In this document: positions 4,068-30,125 of the stretch, piece after piece
Numbering within the stretch: position 1 is the first letter of the stretch
Layout: the number at the start of each line of letters is the position of its first letter
Assembly (NCBI RefSeq): GCF_905480415.1
Contig: NZ_CAJQQI010000049.1
Coordinates: 1-36,991, forward strand
Reading direction: 5' to 3'
Source: an uncultured Algibacter sp.
GTDB lineage: Bacteria > Bacteroidota > Bacteroidia > Flavobacteriales > Flavobacteriaceae
DNA length: 36,991 nt
Notes under the pieces: model-generated
The model's input: the letters and a program-made list of their open reading frames with translations, nothing else
The model's database searches: none
What the model was told of the DNA's origin: nothing
Position numbers and translations under genes: made by a program

Positions 4068-5042
4068 ATGATGCACTCGCTACCATACAAAACTAAACAA
4101 TTCTTTTTTGTGCTTATTAAATTAAGCATTGTAGTTGGTGCTTTTTATTTTATTTATCAAAAATTAGTAAATAATGATGCTTTGAATTTTTCTGATTTTA
4201 CTAGTTTCTTGCTAAAAAAGAACGTTTTTTCGCTTAAAAACATCATTTTTTTAATGATTTTAAGCGTTTTGAATTGGTTTTTTGAAATTCTAAAATGGCA
4301 GGTTTTAGTGCATTTTATCAAAAAAATTAGTTTTAAAAATGCTACCGAACAAAGTTTAGGCGCATTAACTGCCTCACTGTTCACACCAAATAGAATTGGT
4401 GAATACGGTGCTAAAGCTATTTATTATACATCCAATTTTAGGAAGCGCATCATGTTAGTTAACCTAATGAGTAACCTTCTACAAATGACTGTCACCATAA
4501 TTTTGGGAGTTACCGGACTAAGTTTTTATATATTAAAATACGACCCAGAAATAAATTATTATAAACTGGCAAGGTTTTTAGTTTTTGTTTTGATAGCCAT
4601 ACTTTTATTAAGCTTTGGATTAACCAAAAGCAGACTTACAATTAAAGGATTCTCCATAGAAAAGATTAAAGGTTTTGTTGTAGAATACCCGAAAAATAAA
4701 CTCGTTTTAGGGTTTTTGTTTTCAATAATACGGTATCTTGTTTTTTCCTTTCAGTTTTTTATGTTGTTGCAAATTTTTCAGGTAAACCTTAGCTATTTAA
4801 ATGCCATGATTATTATTACAGCCATGTATTTACTAGCTTCGATAATTCCAACTATTTTTATTTTTGACGTGATTATAAAAGGAAGCGTTGCAGTGTATCT
4901 GTTTTCGGTGGCAGATATAAACGAATTGATTGTGCTATCTATAATTACTATTATGTGGTTACTTAACTTTGTAATGCCAAGTCTATTTGGAAGTTACTAT
5001 GTACTTCGTTTTAACTTCCCAAAAAGTCAAGATAAGATATGA
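4068..5042 (+). CDS. lysylphosphatidylglycerol synthase TM-region-like (flippase-like) membrane protein
   Basis: A 324-residue integral membrane protein with about eight hydrophobic segments (for example residues 14-30, 50-69, 135-151, 168-183, 214-236, 245-268, 288-306). The section with GALTASLFTPNRIGEYGAKA near residue 96 is characteristic of the LPG_synthase_TM/UPF0104 family, which includes the flippase half of MprF. No catalytic domain is attached. Its stop overlaps the start of the glycosyltransferase at 5039 by four bases (ATGA), so the two are coupled, and a role in moving or modifying a lipid-linked sugar is a reasonable inference. Two adjacent ATG codons begin the gene; the first is listed. 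The substrate is unknown. Confidence 0.8.
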   Translation: MMHSLPYKTKQFFFVLIKLSIVVGAFYFIYQKLVNNDALNFSDFTSFLLKKNVFSLKNIIFLMILSVLNWFFEILKWQVLVHFIKKISFKNATEQSLGALTASLFTPNRIGEYGAKAIYYTSNFRKRIMLVNLMSNLLQMTVTIILGVTGLSFYILKYDPEINYYKLARFLVFVLIAILLLSFGLTKSRLTIKGFSIEKIKGFVVEYPKNKLVLGFLFSIIRYLVFSFQFFMLLQIFQVNLSYLNAMIIITAMYLLASIIPTIFIFDVIIKGSVAVYLFSVADINELIVLSIITIMWLLNFVMPSLFGSYYVLRFNFPKSQDKI

Positions 5043-20577: not shown

Positions 20578-20635
20578 TATGACAAATGTCATATTTTATG
20601 TAACTATAGTTACATATTTTTATTCGGAATTTCAA
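20578..20635 (+). promoter_or_regulatory. dual-palindrome operator/promoter of the hexahaem lipoprotein gene
   Basis: Palindrome 1 (20578-20593) is TATGACAAATGTCATA, perfect; palindrome 2 (20598-20615) is ATGTAAC-TATA-GTTACAT, also perfect. Their centres are 21 bp apart, and GAATTTCAA follows at 20627-20635. The same three elements with identical spacing precede the gene at 22368. Two arms around a four-base centre fit Crp/Fnr-type dimers. Palindrome 2 lies where an activator could replace the -33 element if the start is near 20640-20648 (inference). Confidence 0.75.
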
Positions 20636-20663
20636 ATTTGTGTAACTAAAAAATTATTACATT

Positions 20664-21902
20664 ATGAAGCCCTTCGACAGAATAAATTACTTAATCATTT
20701 TACTGTCAAGTTTAATGATACTTGGATGTACCCATGACACAGAATATATTGCTGGACCAGCAGGTGCTGACGGCATAGATGGCATTGATGGTCATGATGG
20801 ATTAGATGGAGTAGATGCTTCTGCTGCGGTTTGTATAGATTGTCACTCTGCTTCTCATCGAGACCCAATTACCACTTCATATATTCTATCTGGACATGGT
20901 AGTGGAGGCTCTTGGGCTAGAGGAAAAAGTACAAGTTGTGCGCAGTGTCATAACAATGAAGGTTACATTGATTATTTATCCGGACAGTTTTTTGCAACTG
21001 ATACATCGGGCGATCAAAATGAATTTTTACTAGATGAAGCTGGAATACCTATATTAAATGATAATGACACTCCGGGAAATCCAGATGATGATTTTTATGA
21101 GCCAAATCCTGACTATAACCCTGATTATGGCGATTATCTAGTAGATGGGAATGGAGGCCTTGTACCAATGGTAAATCCAAATGGTTATGCTGTTTCAAAT
21201 CCTATTAGCTGCACAGGCTGCCATACTGATCACCGGTCATTCGATTTTGAAAATGATGGTAATGACTATGCCTTAAGAAATATACATCCAGTTAAATTAG
21301 TTCTTGACCCAATGGTTTCAATTGACTTTGCAAATAGTACGGATCCTCTTGGATTAAGTAACGCATGTATCACTTGTCACCAACCTAGACCAAGTTATCC
21401 TATACCGACAGGAACGGAAGACTACGAGATTACGAGTAGTCGTTTTGGGCCGCATCATGGCCCACAATCAACCATGTTAGAAGGTATCATGGGCGGTATT
21501 ATTGCTGGTTCAACAGGCTACCCTGGCGTAGGAGCCGCTACACATAGATCAGGATCATCCTGTATTTCTTGCCATATGGGGGAAACAACCGACGGTAATG
21601 ACGGTGGGCATTCTTGGAAACCAACCTTAAACACCTGTGTTAGCTGCCACACAACCATGACTAGTATTCCTGAAGGTATTGCTGGCTTAGATGAAGATAT
21701 GGCAACGCTTAAAACATTATTACTAGGTCTCGACCCAAGCCCATTGCTTGAAAATGACAGAACTGTACCAGGTACGTATCCAGCCAATGTAGCTAAAGCT
21801 ATTTGGAATTATAAGACTGTAATGGAAGATAATAGTAACGGTATTCATAACCCTGAATATACTAGAGCGCTGATTAAAAATTCAATTGAGGCCTTAGAAT
21901 AA
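20664..21902 (+). CDS. hexahaem c-type cytochrome lipoprotein with collagen-like tether
   Basis: A 412-residue lipoprotein. The signal peptide ends in the lipobox MILGC with lipidated C22, followed by THDTEY. Residues 31-51 are seven G-X-Y triplets (GPA GAD GID and on), a collagen-like or flexible acidic tether. Six CxxCH haem motifs follow at C57, C92, C183, C235, C300 and C325, with many additional His for axial ligation. An acidic D/N/P-rich segment at about 112-165 could bind calcium. The protein has no catalytic motif known to me such as the NrfA CxxCK, so electron transfer is the likely role, probably at the outer membrane or cell surface. It is a single-gene unit with its own operator and terminator, next to the respiratory operon. 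Confidence 0.85.
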   Translation: MKPFDRINYLIILLSSLMILGCTHDTEYIAGPAGADGIDGIDGHDGLDGVDASAAVCIDCHSASHRDPITTSYILSGHGSGGSWARGKSTSCAQCHNNEGYIDYLSGQFFATDTSGDQNEFLLDEAGIPILNDNDTPGNPDDDFYEPNPDYNPDYGDYLVDGNGGLVPMVNPNGYAVSNPISCTGCHTDHRSFDFENDGNDYALRNIHPVKLVLDPMVSIDFANSTDPLGLSNACITCHQPRPSYPIPTGTEDYEITSSRFGPHHGPQSTMLEGIMGGIIAGSTGYPGVGAATHRSGSSCISCHMGETTDGNDGGHSWKPTLNTCVSCHTTMTSIPEGIAGLDEDMATLKTLLLGLDPSPLLENDRTVPGTYPANVAKAIWNYKTVMEDNSNGIHNPEYTRALIKNSIEALE

Positions 21903-21920
21903 AAATTTTAAAGTTCACAT

Positions 21921-21964
21921 AAAGGTTTAACAGTTCGTGAATTTATGAATTGTTAAACCTTTTA
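21921..21964 (+). terminator. terminator after the hexahaem lipoprotein gene
   Basis: AAAGGTTTAACA (21921-21932) pairs with TGTTAAACCTTT (21951-21962), and the stem can extend inwards through TTC/GAA. A short T-rich tail follows. It lies 18 bases past the stop. Confidence 0.65.
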
Positions 21965-22280
21965 AATTTTATTAAATCTCATTTACCAAAAGAGACGACG
22001 TGTTTAAAAAGATATTTTATTTGATTTCTTACTTTAGAAATCACAATCAGTTGTAAACTAGAAAACAGCACTGTAAAAAAACAAACCTACCGGTAAATCA
22101 AACATATAACAACACTATTTTTTACCATTAAAGAAAATAAATAATTAGCCTCTCGCATGTTAAATAGCAGATGATTAATTGTGAAATCATGTTTTTTATT
22201 GAAATAAATTCAGATTTAATGTTAATTCATTTAAAACCTATAGACCCCAAATAATTAGAACAGTAATTCTCTATAGTTTT

Positions 22281-22338
22281 TATGATATAAGTCATAATTA
22301 ATGTAACAATAGTTACATAATTTTATATAGAATTTCAA
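22281..22338 (+). promoter_or_regulatory. dual-palindrome operator/promoter of the NrfD respiratory operon
   Basis: Palindrome 1 (22281-22296) is TATGATATAAGTCATA with one arm imperfect; palindrome 2 (22301-22318) is ATGTAAC-AATA-GTTACAT, and GAATTTCAA lies at 22330-22338. Offsets between the three elements equal those at 20578-20635 exactly (20 and 29 bases), while the sequence between them differs, which supports selection on the elements. Confidence 0.75.
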
Positions 22339-22367: not shown

Positions 22368-23618
22368 ATGAAAATTTTTAAATTAATTACCGCGCTAATT
22401 ATTACAGTAACATTTGTTTTAGGTTGTACCCATGACGATTATGTTCCACTTACAGGAACAGGAGACGCTGGTATTGGGGAAAGCCCTGATGAATTACTAG
22501 TACAGAAATTCTCTACAGCTCCTGTTTTCGATGGCACCATTGATGATGTTTGGAGTGAAGCCAGACCTTTAATTAATAAAGCTACCGTTACCGGTGCTGG
22601 TGATAGAGAAATCACATTAAATGCATCGAGTGCATTCAACTTAGATTTAGAACCTACTGATTTAATGGACCCCTACAAAGGAGAGAGCTACAGCTACTCT
22701 TTAAGAGGTGGTCATGACGGTGAATACTTATACCTATTATTTGAATGGGAAGATGACACTGATAGTCAGGAAAGAGAATCATGGTTCTTTAACTCTATTA
22801 CAAGTCAATGGCAACAAGAAAACAAATACGCCAATCATAAAAATGATAAATTTTATGAAGATAAATTTGGTTTTATGTTTCCTATAGGCAGTCCTGCAGG
22901 ATTTAATGAAGGTACCTGTACAGTAACGTGTCATGGTAACTTAGCGTTAACAGGTGTTGATGAAGACGATGCAGGAACTAAAGTCACCAGACACTACATG
23001 AAAAACGAAGGTGAATTAGCCGATTTCTGGCACTGGAAACGTGACAGACATGCACTAGCTGAAGCCTGTGATGATGGTTTTGTACAATGGGAAGATGACT
23101 TTGGTAAAGCAACTGCTAACGGAAGAAAAAATGATGATGGAATTTCACCTTATAAAAATAATCAAAAATTTACTGATGCCGTAACTGGAATGAGTGGACC
23201 ATTATATGTAATACCTAATAGAGAAAACTACTATTGGATTGCACAATCTGAAATTGATAGTGGAACCGCAAAAGCAGTGACTGGAATTGCTTTAGATGGC
23301 ACAATAACACATGAAGGCGGAACCATTGATCCTAATGGAGATCCTGCATATTCTCAAGGCTTTGGTAGCAAAAGAATGCCTAGTGTAATTATTAATCCAG
23401 CTGGTCAAGGAAATGATGGTAGATCTGAAGTACAGGTAAAAGCTATACATACAGGTTCTGGATGGCAATTAGAAATCAGAAGATTACTTTATACTGGAGA
23501 CCCTACCGATGCTGAGTTTAAGATTGGAGAAAGCATACCATTTGGTTTAGCAATATTTAATAATGCTGCAATTGCACATGGTCAAACAAACTTCCTATCA
23601 ATGAAAATTGAAAATTAG
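22368..23618 (+). CDS. ethylbenzene-dehydrogenase-domain haem lipoprotein
   Basis: A 416-residue lipoprotein with lipobox VLGC (C20) followed by THDDY, nearly the same start as the hexahaem protein (CTHDTEY). The start of the mature fold, FDGTIDDVWSEARPL (about 54-68), with LYLLFEWEDDTDS after it, matches the EB_dh family, whose best-known member is the haem-binding gamma subunit of ethylbenzene dehydrogenase. A CX3CH motif, CTVTCH (C184-H189), is followed by GELADFWHWKRDR, a pairing typical of EB_dh proteins in cytochrome clusters. It probably binds a covalent haem and passes electrons. It heads the operon behind the second operator. Whether it has its own catalytic role is unknown. Confidence 0.82.
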   Translation: MKIFKLITALIITVTFVLGCTHDDYVPLTGTGDAGIGESPDELLVQKFSTAPVFDGTIDDVWSEARPLINKATVTGAGDREITLNASSAFNLDLEPTDLMDPYKGESYSYSLRGGHDGEYLYLLFEWEDDTDSQERESWFFNSITSQWQQENKYANHKNDKFYEDKFGFMFPIGSPAGFNEGTCTVTCHGNLALTGVDEDDAGTKVTRHYMKNEGELADFWHWKRDRHALAEACDDGFVQWEDDFGKATANGRKNDDGISPYKNNQKFTDAVTGMSGPLYVIPNRENYYWIAQSEIDSGTAKAVTGIALDGTITHEGGTIDPNGDPAYSQGFGSKRMPSVIINPAGQGNDGRSEVQVKAIHTGSGWQLEIRRLLYTGDPTDAEFKIGESIPFGLAIFNNAAIAHGQTNFLSMKIEN

Positions 23619-23665: not shown

Positions 23666-23694
23666 ACTAAGCTTACTTGATAAAAACGTATAAT

Positions 23695-24054
23695 ATGAAA
23701 AAACTATTTCAAACTTTAGTAATCATAGGTATTTGTTTATCTCTAGACTCATGTTATTATGATTCTATTTATGAGCCTATAACTGATGATAATGACGGAA
23801 GTGCCATTGAAGAGGTTACTTATAATAATGATATAGCACCAATTTTTGGATTCTGTAGTAATTGTCATGATGGAGGTCAAAACCCTGATTTAAGAGAAGG
23901 AAACGCATACAGTTCACTGGTTCCAACTTACGTTACAGCTTTTGATGCAGAAGTTAGCCCACTATATCTTAAATTAATAGATGGTCACCAAAATTTACCC
24001 GCGATTAGACTAGAATTAGTTAAAACCTGGATAGACCAAGGGGCCAAAGAATAA
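23695..24054 (+). CDS. small mono-haem c-type cytochrome lipoprotein
   Basis: A 119-residue lipoprotein starting at the ATG at 23695 (an in-frame codon at 23677 would only add six residues before the signal peptide). The lipobox is SLDSC with C20. The single haem site is CSNCH (C54, C57, H58) after the motif VTYNNDIAPIFGF, a layout often seen in Bacteroidota planctomycete-type or surface cytochromes. No Met occurs after the haem motif; in the place of the usual MP ligand there is DGHQNLP, so H98 may be the sixth ligand. It lies between the EB_dh gene and the barrel, and is probably an outer-membrane-side relay. Confidence 0.82.
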   Translation: MKKLFQTLVIIGICLSLDSCYYDSIYEPITDDNDGSAIEEVTYNNDIAPIFGFCSNCHDGGQNPDLREGNAYSSLVPTYVTAFDAEVSPLYLKLIDGHQNLPAIRLELVKTWIDQGAKE

Positions 24055-24076: not shown

Positions 24077-24964
24077 ATGAAAATATATAAAATATTACTC
24101 TTAGCCGCTTTGGCCTTACCTCTATCAGTCTTTTCTCAAGAACAGGTTAATGATACAATTGTAAAGGAAAAACCAGAGCGCCCAGCGTTTGAAAGTTCCT
24201 TTTTATTTGATAACCCAACAAATGTTCTATTTAGTAAAAACACTTTAGAGATACAAATGTCTCACAGATTTGGAGAGCTTAATGACGACAAGAACGATTT
24301 AGCCGGCTTTTATGGCTCAGCGAATATTAGAATTGGATTAACATATGCAATTCACGATAGATTAACCGTAGGGTTCGGTACTACAAAAAACAAGAACTAT
24401 CAAGACTTTAACTGGAAAGCGGCATTATTAAGACAAACACGTTCTGATAAGATACCTGTAAGTGTAAGTTATTACGGAAATTTTGCTATCGATGCAAGAA
24501 GCAAAAACCAAGGTCTTTTTATAGAGACCTCAGATAGATACTCATTTTTTAATCAGTTAATTATAGCCCGTAGATTTAACCCAAAACTTTCTTTACAAGT
24601 AGCGCCGAGTGTTTCTCATTATAACACAGTTGCTACAACAATGAGAAATGATATGGTTGCCATTGCATTTGGAGGACGCTATAAAATTAGTTCTCAAACA
24701 TCTGTAATAGCAGATTATAGTCAACCACTTACTAAAATGAAGTTAGATAACCCTTACCCGGGAATTAGTTTAGGATTTGAATTTGGTACATCGGCACATA
24801 CCTTCCAGTTATTTGCAACAAACTATTGGGGCATTCTTCCTCAGGACAACTATATGTTTAATAAAAAGGCTACTGGTTTAGAAGGGACCTTTGGTTTTGG
24901 CAAGCAAAAGAAAAGTGGTCAATATCTAATTGGATTTAATATAACTAGAAACTATAATTTTTAA
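24077..24964 (+). CDS. DUF5777-type outer-membrane beta-barrel
   Basis: A 295-residue protein with a signal peptide ending VFSQ (about residue 21). The rest shows regular alternating strands with aromatic ends (NTLEIQMSHRFGEL, ANIRIGLTYAIHDRLTVGFG, FGGRYKISSQTSVIADYS, FQLFATNYWGILPQDNYM) and ends in a strand ending NYNF, the terminal aromatic expected of outer-membrane barrels. PTNVLFSKNTLEI and MSHRFG fit DUF5777, a Bacteroidota family often found in cytochrome or YceI loci. It could be a porin-like sleeve for the lipoprotein cytochromes, by analogy with MtrB/PioB, but it is smaller and unrelated in sequence, so this is inference. Confidence 0.8.
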   Translation: MKIYKILLLAALALPLSVFSQEQVNDTIVKEKPERPAFESSFLFDNPTNVLFSKNTLEIQMSHRFGELNDDKNDLAGFYGSANIRIGLTYAIHDRLTVGFGTTKNKNYQDFNWKAALLRQTRSDKIPVSVSYYGNFAIDARSKNQGLFIETSDRYSFFNQLIIARRFNPKLSLQVAPSVSHYNTVATTMRNDMVAIAFGGRYKISSQTSVIADYSQPLTKMKLDNPYPGISLGFEFGTSAHTFQLFATNYWGILPQDNYMFNKKATGLEGTFGFGKQKKSGQYLIGFNITRNYNF

Positions 24965-25252: not shown

Positions 25253-26239
25253 ATGGAAGATAAGAACAAAAGCTCAAGACGTAAATTTCTTGACAATGGC
25301 TTAAAACTGGGAATTGTTAGTGCAATTGGCGGACTTGGCTTGTCTAAAATTACCTCCAAATTAAATGCTTCTAACGTTGATAGCTCTGGAGAGAAAATGG
25401 AGTTAATGACTACCGATGGAACGCTTATTCAAGTAGATTCATCTGAAGTTATGGAAGTAACGCATGCTAAAGAACATGATAAAAAATACAATGTTAGGGA
25501 AGGCAACCCAAATAGAAAATTTGTTATGGTGGTGGATCTTGCAAAATGCAAAAATGCCTTAAAATGTCAAAACGCTTGTAACAAGCATCATTATATTACC
25601 GGAGAAAACGCGTGGCTTAAAGTCTATAAAATGCAGGAAGAAAAAGACACAGCACCGTATTGGATGCCTATGATGTGTATGCATTGTGATCAACCAGCCT
25701 GTGTTACTGTTTGTCCTGTTGACGCCACTTTTAAAAGAAAAGATGGACTCGTACTAATAGACAACGAACGTTGTATTGGTTGCCGATTTTGTATGGCGGC
25801 TTGCCCTTACTCAACACGAGTTTTTAATTGGGGTGAACCCGGTCAAGAAGTCACTTTAAATATGGACATGACTCATCATACACCATCTCCAGAACATGCA
25901 GGAATGCCAAGCATAAAAGGAACAGTAGACAAATGTGACTTTTGCCCGCATGCCATAGACAATAATGAATTACCACACTGTGTTACTTCTTGCCCAAACG
26001 GAGTCTTTTATTTTGGAGACAAATACGAAGACACTGTAACCAATGGAGATGAAACAGTAAGATTAAGCCAATTGCTTGAAGATAAATCAGGATACCGCTT
26101 GATGGAAGGATTAGGAACATCTCCGAGTGTGTATTATTTACCTCCTGTAGATAGATTAGTCGATTTTGAAGATGGTCTAAAAGATTTCAAAGAATTTGAA
26201 TCTGTTGAACCAGTTTCACCTGCTGAAAAACCTGAATAG
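25253..26239 (+). CDS. Tat-exported four-cluster ferredoxin subunit (NrfC/PsrB/CbcT-like)
   Basis: A 328-residue protein with a strong Tat signal (SSRRKFLDNG, R9 and R10), so it folds in the cytoplasm and acts in the periplasm. Four Cys groups follow: group I C99, C105, C109, where the second Cys of the usual CxxCxxCxxxC is A102; group II C142, C145, C150, C154; group III C174, C177, C180, C184; group IV C228, C231, C243, C247. This is the electron-transfer subunit that usually sits on an NrfD-type membrane protein, encoded two bases downstream. Group I would have three ligands, so one cluster may be [3Fe-4S]. No molybdopterin partner is encoded nearby. Confidence 0.93.
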   Translation: MEDKNKSSRRKFLDNGLKLGIVSAIGGLGLSKITSKLNASNVDSSGEKMELMTTDGTLIQVDSSEVMEVTHAKEHDKKYNVREGNPNRKFVMVVDLAKCKNALKCQNACNKHHYITGENAWLKVYKMQEEKDTAPYWMPMMCMHCDQPACVTVCPVDATFKRKDGLVLIDNERCIGCRFCMAACPYSTRVFNWGEPGQEVTLNMDMTHHTPSPEHAGMPSIKGTVDKCDFCPHAIDNNELPHCVTSCPNGVFYFGDKYEDTVTNGDETVRLSQLLEDKSGYRLMEGLGTSPSVYYLPPVDRLVDFEDGLKDFKEFESVEPVSPAEKPE

Positions 26240-26241
26240 TT

Positions 26242-27561
26242 ATGCAAACTCATAAAACTATAATCCGAGATTTAAAGCCAAAAAAATTTGGCAAACGTGA
26301 TACTATCTGGACTATTTCACTCATTGTGATAATACTCATTGGCTTAGTTGCTTATATAGATCAACTTATTACAGGACAAGAAGTTACCAACATGCGAGAT
26401 TATGCCCTTTGGGGTATTTATATTTCAAACTTTGTGTTCTTTGTTGCAACAAGTTTTGTTGGAACAGTAACCGTTGCTATATTAAGGTTAACAAATAATT
26501 CGTGGCGAACACCATTAGTTAGAATTGCTGAAATTATTTCGGTTGCAGCTATTATTATGGCAGGAATCACCATCATGATTGATATGGCAAGACCTGATAG
26601 ATTATTAAATCTATTTATCCATGCGAGACTTCAATCTCCTATTACTTGGGATGTAGTCATTATTCCGACTTACATAGTTATTAGTTTATTATTATTGTAT
26701 TTTCCTTTGATTCCAGATTTTGCAATACTTAAAACGCACTTTAAAAAGAAAGAACCAAAACTTAGTAAGTTTTATGGCAAACTAGCTTTAAACTGGACAG
26801 GAAGTAAAGCTCAAAAATTATTACAAGAAAAATCCATAAGAATTATTGCAATCATGATTATTCCTGTTGGTCTTTTGCTACAAACCATTGATGCTTGGCT
26901 GTTTTCTACCACTTATCGAATTGGATGGGACAGCACTAATTTTGCACCATATTTTATTTCTGGAGCTTTTGTTGCTGGTGTGGGTGCACTGGTAACCCTA
27001 ATTTATATTATTAGAAAAGCGAAAAGATTAGAAAATTATATTACAGATTATCACTTCGACAAACTTGGTAAATTACTAGCACTTGCTTGCTTAATTTACC
27101 TCTACTTTAATATTAACGAATATGTCATTCCTTTATTTACAGCAAAAAAAGGAGAACTTGTACATTTAGAAACATTGTTTACCGGAAGTTATTCAATTTT
27201 ATTTTGGGCAGTAACTATAATAGGATTGATTGTACCAATAATTGTTTTACTGTTTAAAAAAGGAAGAAAACCAAATACCATGTTTGTTATAGGACTCATG
27301 GTTGTAATTGGATCTTGGTGGAAACGATTTGTGATCGTTACGCCAACACTGTTACATCCATTTTTACCGATTCAAGGAGTCCCAGAATCATGGCGTCACT
27401 ATTTTCCTAGCTTACACGAATGGCTAATTACCTTCGCAACATTAGCTATGGCCTTTTTAATTATTACAGTTTGCGTACGTTACTTACCAGTAATACCCAT
27501 TCAAAGAACAATTGATGAAATGGAAGCTTCCGAAGCTAATAATAAAAACACTGAGTCATGA
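26242..27561 (+). CDS. NrfD/PsrC-family quinone-interacting membrane subunit
   Basis: A 439-residue protein with about ten membrane helices (starting near residues 20, 50, 85, 130, 205, 235, 270, 315, 350, 385). The sections MRDYALWGIYISNFVFFVAT, AGITIMIDMARPDR and YFPSLHEWLITFATLAMAF resemble NrfD-like subunits of the longer ActC/DsrP kind. Family members exchange electrons between menaquinone and an attached ferredoxin subunit, and some conduct protons. It follows the ferredoxin after two bases and overlaps the next gene by four bases (ATGA), so the three products should be made together. The direction is inferred as quinol oxidation because the other components are cytochromes. Confidence 0.9.
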   Translation: MQTHKTIIRDLKPKKFGKRDTIWTISLIVIILIGLVAYIDQLITGQEVTNMRDYALWGIYISNFVFFVATSFVGTVTVAILRLTNNSWRTPLVRIAEIISVAAIIMAGITIMIDMARPDRLLNLFIHARLQSPITWDVVIIPTYIVISLLLLYFPLIPDFAILKTHFKKKEPKLSKFYGKLALNWTGSKAQKLLQEKSIRIIAIMIIPVGLLLQTIDAWLFSTTYRIGWDSTNFAPYFISGAFVAGVGALVTLIYIIRKAKRLENYITDYHFDKLGKLLALACLIYLYFNINEYVIPLFTAKKGELVHLETLFTGSYSILFWAVTIIGLIVPIIVLLFKKGRKPNTMFVIGLMVVIGSWWKRFVIVTPTLLHPFLPIQGVPESWRHYFPSLHEWLITFATLAMAFLIITVCVRYLPVIPIQRTIDEMEASEANNKNTES

Positions 27562-28430
27562 AACATCTAAATCCTAGACATCTTCTACTTCTTATACTTT
27601 TATGTGTGTTTATTAGTCCTTTTTTAAGCCAAAAACTGGAAGCACAGGATAAGAAAAAAATAAAGCTTAGAATAAAAGCAGATTATACAAAGATAATAGA
27701 TCATTCCTGCTTTATTGATTTAACAACTACCGCCAAAATCAACAAAAAAAACACAGGTGTTGCTAATTTAATTTTAACCATTATTAATGAAACCGATGAT
27801 GATCAATTAGAATTAGGACAGGCAACTACAAACCAAGATGGAAAAGTTAGATTTCTTATAAATGACCTTAATAAATTACTAAAAGACACTCTCGGGTTTT
27901 ACACCTTAAAGGTGAAATTTAAGGGTGATGAGCGTTTTAAGAAAGCCTCTAAAAGACTTTCATTTAAAGATGCGAACATAGAGGCCAAATCATTTACAAA
28001 AGACAGTGTTAATTATGTGAGCGCAACTCTAAAAGATTTACATTTAGACAGCTTATTAAGCGAGACACCTCTTAATGTGAGTGTAGAGCGCCTATTCAAG
28101 TCACTCCCTTTAGGAGAAGAATTTAATTATACTGACAAAAACGGCACTATTGTTGTACCTATAGAAGAAGGGATTCCGGGTTTAGATGGCAAATTAGTCA
28201 TTGAAGTGGTATTGAATGACAGTGATGATTACGGAACTGTAAAAGCTCTGGTAAATACTACTTTTGGGAAAACAATAATTTTAGACAATTCCTTCGAAAA
28301 CAGAACATTATGGGCACCAAGGAACAAAACCCCTATCTTTATTCTAATATTTGCTAATCTATTAATTTTTGCAATGTGGGGCATCATTATATATTTAATA
28401 AACAATTTATTTAGAATCAATAAATCTTAA
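27558..28430 (+). CDS. tail-anchored periplasmic protein with Ig-like domains
   Basis: A 290-residue protein. It has an N-terminal signal peptide (about 1-30, ending KLEAQ), two stretches resembling Ig or invasin-type beta sandwiches (about 35-135, with GQATTNQDGKVRFLIND, and about 140-245, with NYTDKNGTIVVPIEEG), and a single membrane helix near the C-terminus (263-285) with a short basic tail. No Cys pair, haem or metal motif is present, so it is not itself a redox carrier. Being translated through an ATGA overlap with the NrfD gene, it is probably a structural subunit on the periplasmic face of that complex. No named family was recognised with certainty. Confidence 0.75.
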   Translation: MKHLNPRHLLLLILLCVFISPFLSQKLEAQDKKKIKLRIKADYTKIIDHSCFIDLTTTAKINKKNTGVANLILTIINETDDDQLELGQATTNQDGKVRFLINDLNKLLKDTLGFYTLKVKFKGDERFKKASKRLSFKDANIEAKSFTKDSVNYVSATLKDLHLDSLLSETPLNVSVERLFKSLPLGEEFNYTDKNGTIVVPIEEGIPGLDGKLVIEVVLNDSDDYGTVKALVNTTFGKTIILDNSFENRTLWAPRNKTPIFILIFANLLIFAMWGIIIYLINNLFRINKS

Positions 28431-28443
28431 AAAATTTGACATT

Positions 28444-28842
28444 ATGAAAACACTTAAAAACCTAATCTTTATAGCAATTTTATCTTTCGTTATTGTTTCT
28501 TTCACCTCAATTATTCAAGATGAGTGGGTTGTTCCTGCCAAGTACGAAAACATGAAAAATCCAACAAATTCTAGTGAAGATTTAGACATTGGAAAATCAC
28601 TTTATAGCAAACACTGTAAATCATGTCATGGCAAAGAAGGCTATGGTGACGGACCAAAAGCTGAAGAACAAGAAGGTGATTTAGGAGATTTCTCAACATC
28701 AGAATTTCAAGCACAATCTGATGGAGCTTTATTTTACAAGACCTCTTTTGGAAGAGACGATATGCCAGAATACACAAAAAAAATGACTGATGACGAAGAC
28801 AGATGGCTTATAGTAAATTATATGAGAACCTTAGAAGAATAA
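28444..28842 (+). CDS. class I mono-haem cytochrome c
   Basis: A 132-residue protein with an N-terminal hydrophobic segment (8-24) that could be a signal peptide or anchor. The haem motif is CKSCH (C58, C61, H62), in the typical GKSLYSKHCKSCHGKEGYGDG context, and M107 (FGRDDMPEYTK) is the likely sixth ligand. The C-terminal helix DRWLIVNYMRTL is standard for the fold. It should be a soluble or inner-membrane-attached electron carrier, probably accepting from the NrfD/ferredoxin unit. It lies 13 bases after the tail-anchored protein. Confidence 0.92.
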   Translation: MKTLKNLIFIAILSFVIVSFTSIIQDEWVVPAKYENMKNPTNSSEDLDIGKSLYSKHCKSCHGKEGYGDGPKAEEQEGDLGDFSTSEFQAQSDGALFYKTSFGRDDMPEYTKKMTDDEDRWLIVNYMRTLEE

Positions 28843-28845
28843 CTT

Positions 28846-28859
28846 AAGGAGTAAAATTG
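28846..28859 (+). promoter_or_regulatory. Shine-Dalgarno-like AAGGAG with TTG codon upstream of hemA
   Basis: AAGGAG (28846-28851) stands five bases before an in-frame TTG (28857-28859). Strong Shine-Dalgarno sites are rare in this window, so this could mark a longer HemA form or a coupling site after the cytochrome c stop at 28842. Confidence 0.4.
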
Positions 28860-28895
28860 CCTTATTATTTTATTAAGCAATTAAACAACCATAAA

Positions 28896-30125
28896 ATGAA
28901 CCAGTCATTACGCTATATTAGTATTTCGCATAAAACAGCTTCGGTTAAACAAAGAGAAGTATTCCATATTCCTCTGGAAAAGAAAAGTGATTACACTCAA
29001 ATTTTATGTAATACTTTTCCAGATATTGATGGATTGCTACTTTTAACAACTTGCAATAGGACTGAAATATATTTTGAAACCAGAACACATTCGGCGACAA
29101 GTATTCGTGATTATTTAATAGATCTAAAATTGCCTAAAAGCAGTTCTATAGATAAAAATTTATTTGAGTTTAGTGACAGTACTGAATCCACTGTAAAACA
29201 CCTATTGGAAGTGTCATCTGGACTAGAGTCTTCAGTATTAGGCGATTCTGAAATTATACATCAAATTAAAAAATCGTTTCAATTTTCAATGACCCACAAA
29301 CTACAAGGGTCTTTATTAGAACGTGCAATACAAAGTGTTTTTAAAAGTCATAAGCGAATAAGTAATGAAACTAATTTTAGAGATGGCACAACTTCTGTTG
29401 CCTATAAATCATTAAAAGTCATTCAAAATAATTTCAAAAACGCCAGCTCAAAGACAAAAAAAATACTTTTTATCGGAGCTGGTGATATTGTAAAACAATT
29501 ATTTAAATATAATTCAAAATTTAATTACAGCAATATTTATATAAGTAATCGAAGTAAAGAAAAGGCTATGATATTGGCCCAAAAAAATAAGTGCAAAACA
29601 TTTCCTTGGGCGAACGTACTGGCAAATAAATTAGATGATTTTGAAGTTATTATAAGTGCCGTTAGCAATTGTTCAAATCTGATACATGATTTAACTGTTT
29701 CAAACCATAATGTATTACTTCTTGACTTAGCTGTTCCTTGTAATATTGACAAAAGCCTGATGTATCAAAATAACGTAATGTTTCATGATTTAGATTCTAT
29801 TTCAAAAGAACTTGAAGAAAATAAAGAGATGCGTATAGCTTCCAAAAGTGACGTAATTAATATTATTGTAGAAGAACTTACAACTTACAACGAGTGGCTT
29901 AATGAAGCGCAGTTAAGAGCTCTTTTGGCCAACTTGAAAATTTCGATAAACAAGGTGGTTACGAAACAGTTTCAACCTAATATTGAAGACACTCAAATTA
30001 AATTGGTAACTAATGAGGTCATGAAAAAACTAATCAATCAAAAAGAAACATTAGCATTATTACCTGAAAATGAATTAAATAAAATAATATCTGACGAAGC
30101 TTCACTTCTAATTAATAACTTGTAA
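28896..30125 (+). CDS. hemA: glutamyl-tRNA reductase
   Basis: A 409-residue enzyme that converts Glu-tRNA to glutamate-1-semialdehyde, the first committed step of haem synthesis. The catalytic Cys is C53 (LLTTCNRTEIYFE), followed by SSGLESSVLGDSEI, the NADPH fold (ILFIGAGDIVKQL, NIYISNRSKEKA) and the dimerisation domain. The ATG at 28896 gives the family N-terminus (MNQSLRYISISHKTA). A TTG at 28857 preceded five bases earlier by AAGGAG is an alternative start that adds 13 residues. It follows the cytochrome c gene in the same direction with no terminator, so it is probably in the respiratory operon. It may be a second copy of hemA; this needs the rest of the genome. Confidence 0.93.
   Translation: MNQSLRYISISHKTASVKQREVFHIPLEKKSDYTQILCNTFPDIDGLLLLTTCNRTEIYFETRTHSATSIRDYLIDLKLPKSSSIDKNLFEFSDSTESTVKHLLEVSSGLESSVLGDSEIIHQIKKSFQFSMTHKLQGSLLERAIQSVFKSHKRISNETNFRDGTTSVAYKSLKVIQNNFKNASSKTKKILFIGAGDIVKQLFKYNSKFNYSNIYISNRSKEKAMILAQKNKCKTFPWANVLANKLDDFEVIISAVSNCSNLIHDLTVSNHNVLLLDLAVPCNIDKSLMYQNNVMFHDLDSISKELEENKEMRIASKSDVINIIVEELTTYNEWLNEAQLRALLANLKISINKVVTKQFQPNIEDTQIKLVTNEVMKKLINQKETLALLPENELNKIISDEASLLINNL

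Follow-up and report, generated by a model that had tools for sequence, protein, structure and literature searches.

In the 36 991-nucleotide stretch of Algibacter DNA analysed here (the window), two promoters, lying upstream of the genes that start at 20664 and 22368, carry the same two Crp/Fnr-type palindromes, termed sites A and B, at one fixed spacing. We propose, with a probability of about 0.64, that these are two-input promoters at which an FNR-like protein acting at A and a Crp/Fnr protein of the type encoded on contig C95 of the same genome (the C95-type protein) acting at B place a cytochrome operon under the control of low oxygen and reduced sulfur. More specifically, the FNR-like protein would bind site A and be active at low oxygen, while the C95-type protein would bind site B and most likely senses a reduced-sulfur signal via three invariant cysteines. 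As the palindrome centres are 21 bp, or two helical turns, apart, both dimers should sit on one face of the DNA with B proximal to the gene; this spacing, the promoter-proximal position of B and the repeated use of the arrangement at several cytochrome genes suggest that the two proteins most likely activate jointly. The output would be a quinone-linked chain (a DsrO/DsrP-like module, cytochromes, an outer-membrane barrel and lipoprotein cytochromes), made at low oxygen when reduced sulfur is present.

The preliminary description of this DNA had reported both palindromes and a third element upstream of both genes at identical offsets of 20 and 29 bases, with palindrome centres 21 bp apart. All of these motif copies, coordinates and offsets proved exact (Table 1), and the recomputed centres (20585.5 and 20606.5 for one promoter, 22288.5 and 22309.5 for the other) gave the same distance in both copies. 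The four-base centre that had been taken to fit Crp/Fnr regulators also stands, although site A, given as TATGA-N6-TCATA, is better written TATGAY-N4-RTCATA, so that both palindromes have a four-base centre. Site B is written here as TGTAAC-N4-GTTACA, and both cores are 16 bp long. In both promoters A comes first and B lies nearer the gene, the cores are separated by a gap of 5 bases, and the end of the B core is 49 or 50 bases from the start codon.

The assembly searched comprises 2.82 Mb in 194 contigs and is 92.5 % complete; the window, with a G+C content of 33 %, is its contig 49. With up to three mismatches allowed, the A–B pair at 21-bp spacing is found only in these two places in the assembly, against no match for a backwards control, or one when the symmetric form of the pattern is used, and base composition predicts about 7e-7 exact pairs per genome. 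Within the window, site A occurs twice where 0.06 copies are expected; site B, with three mismatches allowed, also occurs twice where 3.5 are expected, a number that is unremarkable taken alone, but both copies found are exact. The paired architecture is far beyond chance. Indeed, the scan for the pair at fixed offset gave a non-random result, and the earlier view that two transcription units are under one control is supported by a common, fixed architecture that is unique to their two promoters in the assembly.

The third element, GAATTTCAA, had been placed on an equal footing with the palindromes. It cannot keep that rank, since it occurs six times in the window (at 4282, 20627, 22330, 28702, 30489 and 32569; 1.62 copies expected) and is loosely kept in the upstream regions of relatives. 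In the aligned upstream regions a T-run, TAnTTTT, directly after B is more constant than GAATTTCAA. The core promoter of the Bacteroidetes consists of −7 and −33 boxes, and a by-eye comparison of GAATTTCAA with these boxes gave no convincing match.

Table 1. Features of the two promoters, the genes behind them and the two candidate regulators (window coordinates, except where a contig of the window's genome, G000, is named)
Feature	Position	Strand	Remarks
Site A, copy 1	20578..20593	.	TATGAC-AAAT-GTCATA, FNR-like palindrome
Site B, copy 1	20598..20615	.	ATGTAAC-TATA-GTTACAT; site type also found before sulfur genes
GAATTTCAA, copy 1	20627..20635	+	3' of B; weakly conserved, may belong to the core promoter
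MHC	20664..21902	+	Hexahaem (6 CxxCH) lipoprotein cytochrome c with collagen-like GxxGxDG stretch
Site A, copy 2	22281..22296	.	TATGAT-ATAA-GTCATA
Site B, copy 2	22301..22318	.	ATGTAAC-AATA-GTTACAT
GAATTTCAA, copy 2	22330..22338	+	
EB_dh	22368..23618	+	EB_dh-domain (PF09459) lipoprotein, one CxxxCH
cytX	23677..24054	+	Small lipoprotein, one CxxCH; in the EB_dh transcription unit by position; no Pfam family
DUF5777	24077..24964	+	Membrane beta-barrel
DsrO-like	25253..26239	+	Ferredoxin subunit (4Fe-4S); DsrO is the top NCBIfam model, with a score below cut-off
NrfD/DsrP-like	26242..27561	+	Membrane subunit (PF03916)
g7	27558..28430	+	Protein without known family, kept in the operon across loci
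Cytochrome c	28444..28842	+	Monohaem
Glutamyl-tRNA reductase	28857..30125	+	Second, divergent copy (haem supply); closes the cytochrome run
FNR-like protein	G000:C63:4999-5676	minus	Crp/Fnr protein
C95-type protein	G000:C95:5148-5774	minus	Crp/Fnr protein, 209 residues; before YeeE/TsuA-type and TauE genes

Relatives of the EB_dh protein occur in 14 of 397 genomes of the family, the window's own included. This genome is the sole match among ten of its genus, none being found in its nine genus mates, and conservation was therefore read in other genera. We compared 36 regions upstream of MHC and EB_dh genes from 24 loci, including the window, and required each of A and B to match at least 9 of 12 positions. 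Loci L042 and L043 (distant or no relatives) were dropped before the counts, and duplicates (L045–L048 and L054) and regions with fewer than 60 upstream bases were dropped from the comparison of upstream regions. Both sites with a gap of exactly 5 bases were found in 12 of the 36 regions and nine of the 24 loci (10 of 34 and eight of 23 when the window is excluded), against a mean of 0.05 regions, and a largest value of one, in 200 dinucleotide shuffles; every other gap from 0 to 15 was seen in at most two loci. The conservation upstream of orthologues that the preliminary description looked for is therefore partial, the gap-5 pair being absent from 15 of the 24 loci even at 9 of 12 matches; several of these keep A alone and others have a rearranged order or spacing. 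Lutimonas halocynthiae and Gelidibacter salicanalis are among the EB_dh carriers in which the gap-5 pair is missing. Another tally gives 21-bp spacing for 16 of 28 pairs, but it includes loci fetched by the fixed-gap pattern and was not used for spacing. Where the aligned start is an ATG, which holds for ten regions, the distance to the start codon varies from 48 to 62 bp; the MHC starts in L040 and L041 are estimates rather than ATG codons. In G133, a one-contig genome from another genus, both promoters carry the pair.

A scan of all 397 genomes with up to three mismatches found 20 pairs in 17 genomes, against 15 matches for the backwards control; the mismatch counts of the latter are unlisted, so that the 14 best pairs have their own positions as their sole matched control. 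With at most two mismatches there are these 14 pairs, and every one of them precedes genes for cytochromes or fasciclin-domain lipoproteins: MHC or EB_dh in 11 cases, another cytochrome lipoprotein in one and fasciclin in two (the last two types named by eye). The six pairs with three mismatches are more mixed, one preceding a fasciclin gene, three lying inside genes and two lying between genes of no clear link. Two of the three pairs before fasciclin genes have an Rrf2-like gene beside them, an arrangement also found in the nos cluster. In G229, G141 and G329 the divergent gene next to the pair is, by eye, DNA polymerase III alpha-like, just as it is in the window, and G096 keeps a pair with 11 matching positions in A and 11 in B. 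The pair architecture is real and specific, and part of the family retains it.

Most of the loci that extend far enough conserve the gene order of the whole run from EB_dh through to cytochrome c. The role and substrate of the operon we infer: the protein families suggest that electrons reach the outer membrane by a quinone-linked route, and no catalytic molybdenum subunit was seen among the genes of the run. For DUF5777 no mention was found in the literature searched, which for the operon yielded a review of NrfD-like subunits. The glutamyl-tRNA reductase gene at the end of the run, which among the operon loci compared is present only in the window and L044, is likely to be a dedicated haem supply for the cytochromes; the other hemA of the genome lies on a separate contig (G000:C146) with a site A of its own. 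Elsewhere a second ferredoxin–NrfD–cytochrome module follows the first (L044, 13808–18436; L027, 7505–10783; L035, L036 and L041), and in G133 a glutamyl-tRNA reductase gene comes after the second module, with a B site before it.

Judged by the genes beside them elsewhere, A and B probably answer to separate regulators. Five operon genomes have 9, 10, 9, 13 and 9 exact A sites, where the control gives 0, 2, 1, 0 and 1 (9 against 0 in the window's genome, where composition predicts 3.1); three genus mates without the operon show no excess (3, 1 and 3 against 4, 3 and 4). Outside the locus, the window's genome has seven A sites, five of which precede genes that are anaerobic or microaerobic by gene identity: a cytochrome c gene heading the nosZ cluster, a site between fnr-like and copper-ATPase-like genes, hemN, hemA and a pyruvate:ferredoxin-type gene (the last by eye). 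The remaining two are not obviously anaerobic: one precedes a TonB-like gene and the other lies between lysS and a DUF302-like gene. In three genera (L102, L110 and L167) A is found between lysS-like and DUF302-like genes, both named by eye. In other genomes A lies beside genes for RIC, NuoEF and nos-type cytochromes and beside hemA; some A sites of G285 and G096 are inside genes, probably by chance, and others are beside unrelated genes. The name NorC-like for an A-site neighbour in G366 and G096 was given by eye, with no NCBIfam match in the one tested. Taken together, the regulon neighbours support the reading of A as the mark of a putative FNR-type anaerobic and denitrification regulon, and to this extent the oxygen input suggested by the preliminary description is upheld.

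The FNR-like protein of the window's genome aligns to FNR structures 5cvr and 5e44 over residues 3–222, its best chain being 2gau, another Crp/Fnr protein, and it matches NF008365 Fnr with a score below cut-off. FNR has a third N-terminal cysteine. In the FNR-like proteins compared the N-terminal CxxC and the Cys before IP are present, but the third cysteine is, by eye, shifted in G000, G133 and G285, located elsewhere in G366 and absent in G096. The core of A, TGAY-N4-RTCA as fixed by the search pattern, has the four-base centre of FNR sites. Like the E. coli FNR regulon, for which the consensus is TTGATnnnnATCAA (PMC3688515), it is associated with anaerobic genes and with a protein bearing an N-terminal CxxC; unlike the E. 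coli sites (TTGAT), as given in the available part of that source, the outermost bases are TA rather than T.

Exact B sites number five in the window's genome (control 0, expected 0.33) and 6, 2, 4 and 0 in the four other operon genomes (control 0, 1, 0 and 1). The five comprise the two window promoters, one site before a type III sulfide:quinone reductase (SQR) gene, one inside a coding region and one without an assigned gene; one of the six in G133 adjoins no sulfur gene. Elsewhere, B precedes genes for a metallo-beta-lactamase/rhodanese protein resembling persulfide dioxygenases, a SulP transporter, SorA-like sulfite dehydrogenases, TsuA/YeeE and TauE transporters and a FadL-type porin, and in G366 it lies upstream of a NapA-like gene. 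In a neighbour test on one B locus (the first listed site) from each of 29 genomes, relatives of reference proteins were found within 1.5 kb at 16 of the 29, against two of 40 control loci, namely the SQR promoter that carries both A and B, and the regulator's own locus; since the references were drawn from B loci, the test measures recurrence and not independent choice. The 16 include one locus with merely a desaturase-like neighbour of a sulfite dehydrogenase and one that is the source of a reference, and six of the 29 B sites are inside an open frame. These neighbours point to sulfur rather than nitrogen oxides as the probable theme of the second palindrome, and the single oxygen or nitrogen-oxide system to which the preliminary description had assigned both palindromes would give way, as regards B, to a second regulator.

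Some further loci with B sites deserve mention in their own right. In G177 (L258), PhsA-like molybdenum and ExtM-like multihaem genes are divergent around an A–B pair 32 bp apart. At L150 (2101–2463), L268 and L269, B is located about 35–37 bp before the gene of a similar 120-residue small protein (by eye). The SQR of L106 (1653–2897) exceeds the cut-off of NF049943, a model for the selenoprotein subtype of type III SQR, although its frame is open as that of an ordinary protein.

In the SQR promoters of G000 and G285, A and B occur in the reverse order, 27 bp apart, and the roles of the two sites may therefore differ between promoters. This reversal, when set against the promoter-proximal position of B at the cytochrome genes, would be in keeping with a possible, though less likely, alternative in which the two regulators are antagonists, B being a repressor site that is released when sulfur is present and A alone activating; BigR, a known persulfide sensor, is indeed a repressor in the part of the account available (PMC7315123). 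A spacing fixed at two turns, when the distance to the start codon is more variable, would, we infer, better suit activators bound side by side, and joint activation is the reading that we prefer.

The candidate regulator of site B contains a cNMP-binding domain (PF00027, 35.0 bits) and a Crp-type helix–turn–helix (PF13545, 42.6 bits), both above cut-off. An alignment of 33 orthologues from 33 genomes (the 30 best-scoring, with that of the window's genome among them, plus those of G133, G285 and G366) shows the recognition helix TSRVVxSR in all 33, with Val and not Pro at the 181 position, and Cys78, Cys84 and Cys85 are invariant in every sequence. Helix residues were read as CRP 180, 181 and 185 by eye, and TSRxxxSR was used to locate the protein, so those letters are no independent test, though none of the 33 loci was lost by it. 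In 32 of the 33 loci a YeeE/TsuA-like gene (by eye) follows directly downstream. Relatives of the regulator at an E value of 1e-20 or better are found in 340 of the 397 genomes; these 340 hold 400 exact B sites against 153 for the control (at least one site in 202 genomes, none in 138), whereas the 57 genomes without a relative hold 12 against 20. The association of B sites with regulator presence has a Fisher p of 8e-5, uncorrected for phylogeny, genome size or completeness, and, as the regulator is found in so many genomes, its presence is weakly informative. G002 and G007 have the regulator and no exact B site; among the 14 operon genomes, G096 and G246 (87 % and 82 % complete) gave no regulator match at 1e-20. 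No Crp/Fnr-type regulator of sulfide or sulfur was recognized in the titles and abstracts of the literature searched, which leaves its absence unproven.

Given that the co-occurrence is statistical, it is conceivable, albeit improbable, that B is bound by another Crp/Fnr protein, such as a response-regulator/Crp fusion (G000:C164) or a protein of the R-P type, and that the C95-type protein merely co-occurs. G096, which keeps a pair without a detected orthologue, does have an R-P-type protein. However, the PF13545 proteins of G133 are the FNR-like protein, the response-regulator fusion and the C95-type protein, with none of the R-P type, and this genome has six exact B sites; three further cNMP-domain proteins of G133 remain candidates for B. 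The fusion, for its part, keeps Glu at the 181 position of its helix (by eye), so that TGA-type sites are predicted for it. We continue to regard the C95-type protein as the probable ligand of B.

The core of site B is GTAACnnnnGTTAC, the published HcpR2 motif, and GTAACnnnnGTTAC has been linked to replacement of Glu181, by Pro in HcpR2 (Rodionov et al., 2005; PMC1274295). The change at CRP position Glu181 is common to both regulators, and Val at 181 with Arg before it fits, by analogy, the HcpR2 motif rule. In the available part of that study, however, the predicted HcpR2 regulons consist mostly of hcp genes and the residue is Pro, whereas here Val takes its place and the neighbours are for the most part sulfur genes; with Val in place of Pro at 181, the putative B regulator is not classed as an HcpR. 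DNA contacts of Bacteroides thetaiotaomicron HcpR have been modelled via Pro187, Ser188 and Arg191 (2026 preprint, PMC13370916) and, as far as the available part of that preprint goes, the B regulator is without a residue equivalent to Pro187 (by eye).

The HcpR2-like sequence of B, its position 5' of the NapA-like gene in one genome, the A sites before nosZ and RIC genes and the three pairs before fasciclin genes, two of them beside an Rrf2-like gene as noted above, are partial links to nitrogen oxides, and could be accommodated by one nitrogen-oxide and oxygen system, with an HcpR- or DNR-like sensor at B and FNR at A, serving denitrification or nitrosative defence. We consider this quite improbable and dropped the idea of one such system for both sites once the genes beside B sites had been read: in several genera these are sulfur genes, no hcp gene was recognized by eye beside those B sites whose neighbours were read, and the co-occurring regulator sits before sulfur transporter genes. 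A recent duplication of one promoter, leaving a fixed spacing without a function of its own, is scarcely credible, for although the copies have 48 of 58 bases in common, G133 has both copies, its EB_dh site A is that of the window letter for letter while the window's own two copies differ, so that neither window promoter is a recent copy of the other, and the family-wide scan found pairs before unrelated genes also.

The BigR repressor is of the ArsR type. Together with FisR, it provides persulfide-sensing control of SQR, PDO, TauE and YeeE/YedE genes in Acinetobacter (PMC7315123); in the available portion of that report the two are a sigma54 activator (FisR) and a repressor, and not Crp/Fnr proteins as proposed here. 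In a manner similar to the promoters of the window, at which two different Crp/Fnr paralogues are predicted from the sites, the E. coli ansB promoter is co-activated by two Crp/Fnr paralogues (cited in PMC3688515). Unlike ansB, as far as it is presented in that source, the window promoters have their sites at a distance of 21 bp, in a pattern seen again at several operons and in several genera. The Shewanella omcA and mtrC promoters are under CRP, with one site each at about −61 (PMC4417206), and resemble the window's promoters in the Crp-family control of outer-membrane cytochrome genes predicted here; the available part of that account contains no paired second site of the window's kind.

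It is tempting to extend the two-input reading to a wider and decidedly tentative proposal: that the C95-type protein is an undescribed sulfur sensor (C-x-M-x-x-x-C-C), widespread in the Flavobacteriaceae, that runs sulfide and sulfite oxidation, and that at a subset of its promoters it is combined with FNR in a putative, helically locked AND gate, which would allow the quinone-to-outer-membrane cytochrome chain to be made only at low oxygen and in the presence of reduced sulfur. For a large bacterial family, the analysis offers a regulon of sulfide and sulfite oxidation that can be put to the test, naming a probable regulator and its DNA site, and it ties an uncharacterized cytochrome operon to low oxygen and sulfur. 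In addition, the fixed spacing of two different Crp/Fnr sites may provide a natural system for studying two paralogous activators on one promoter.
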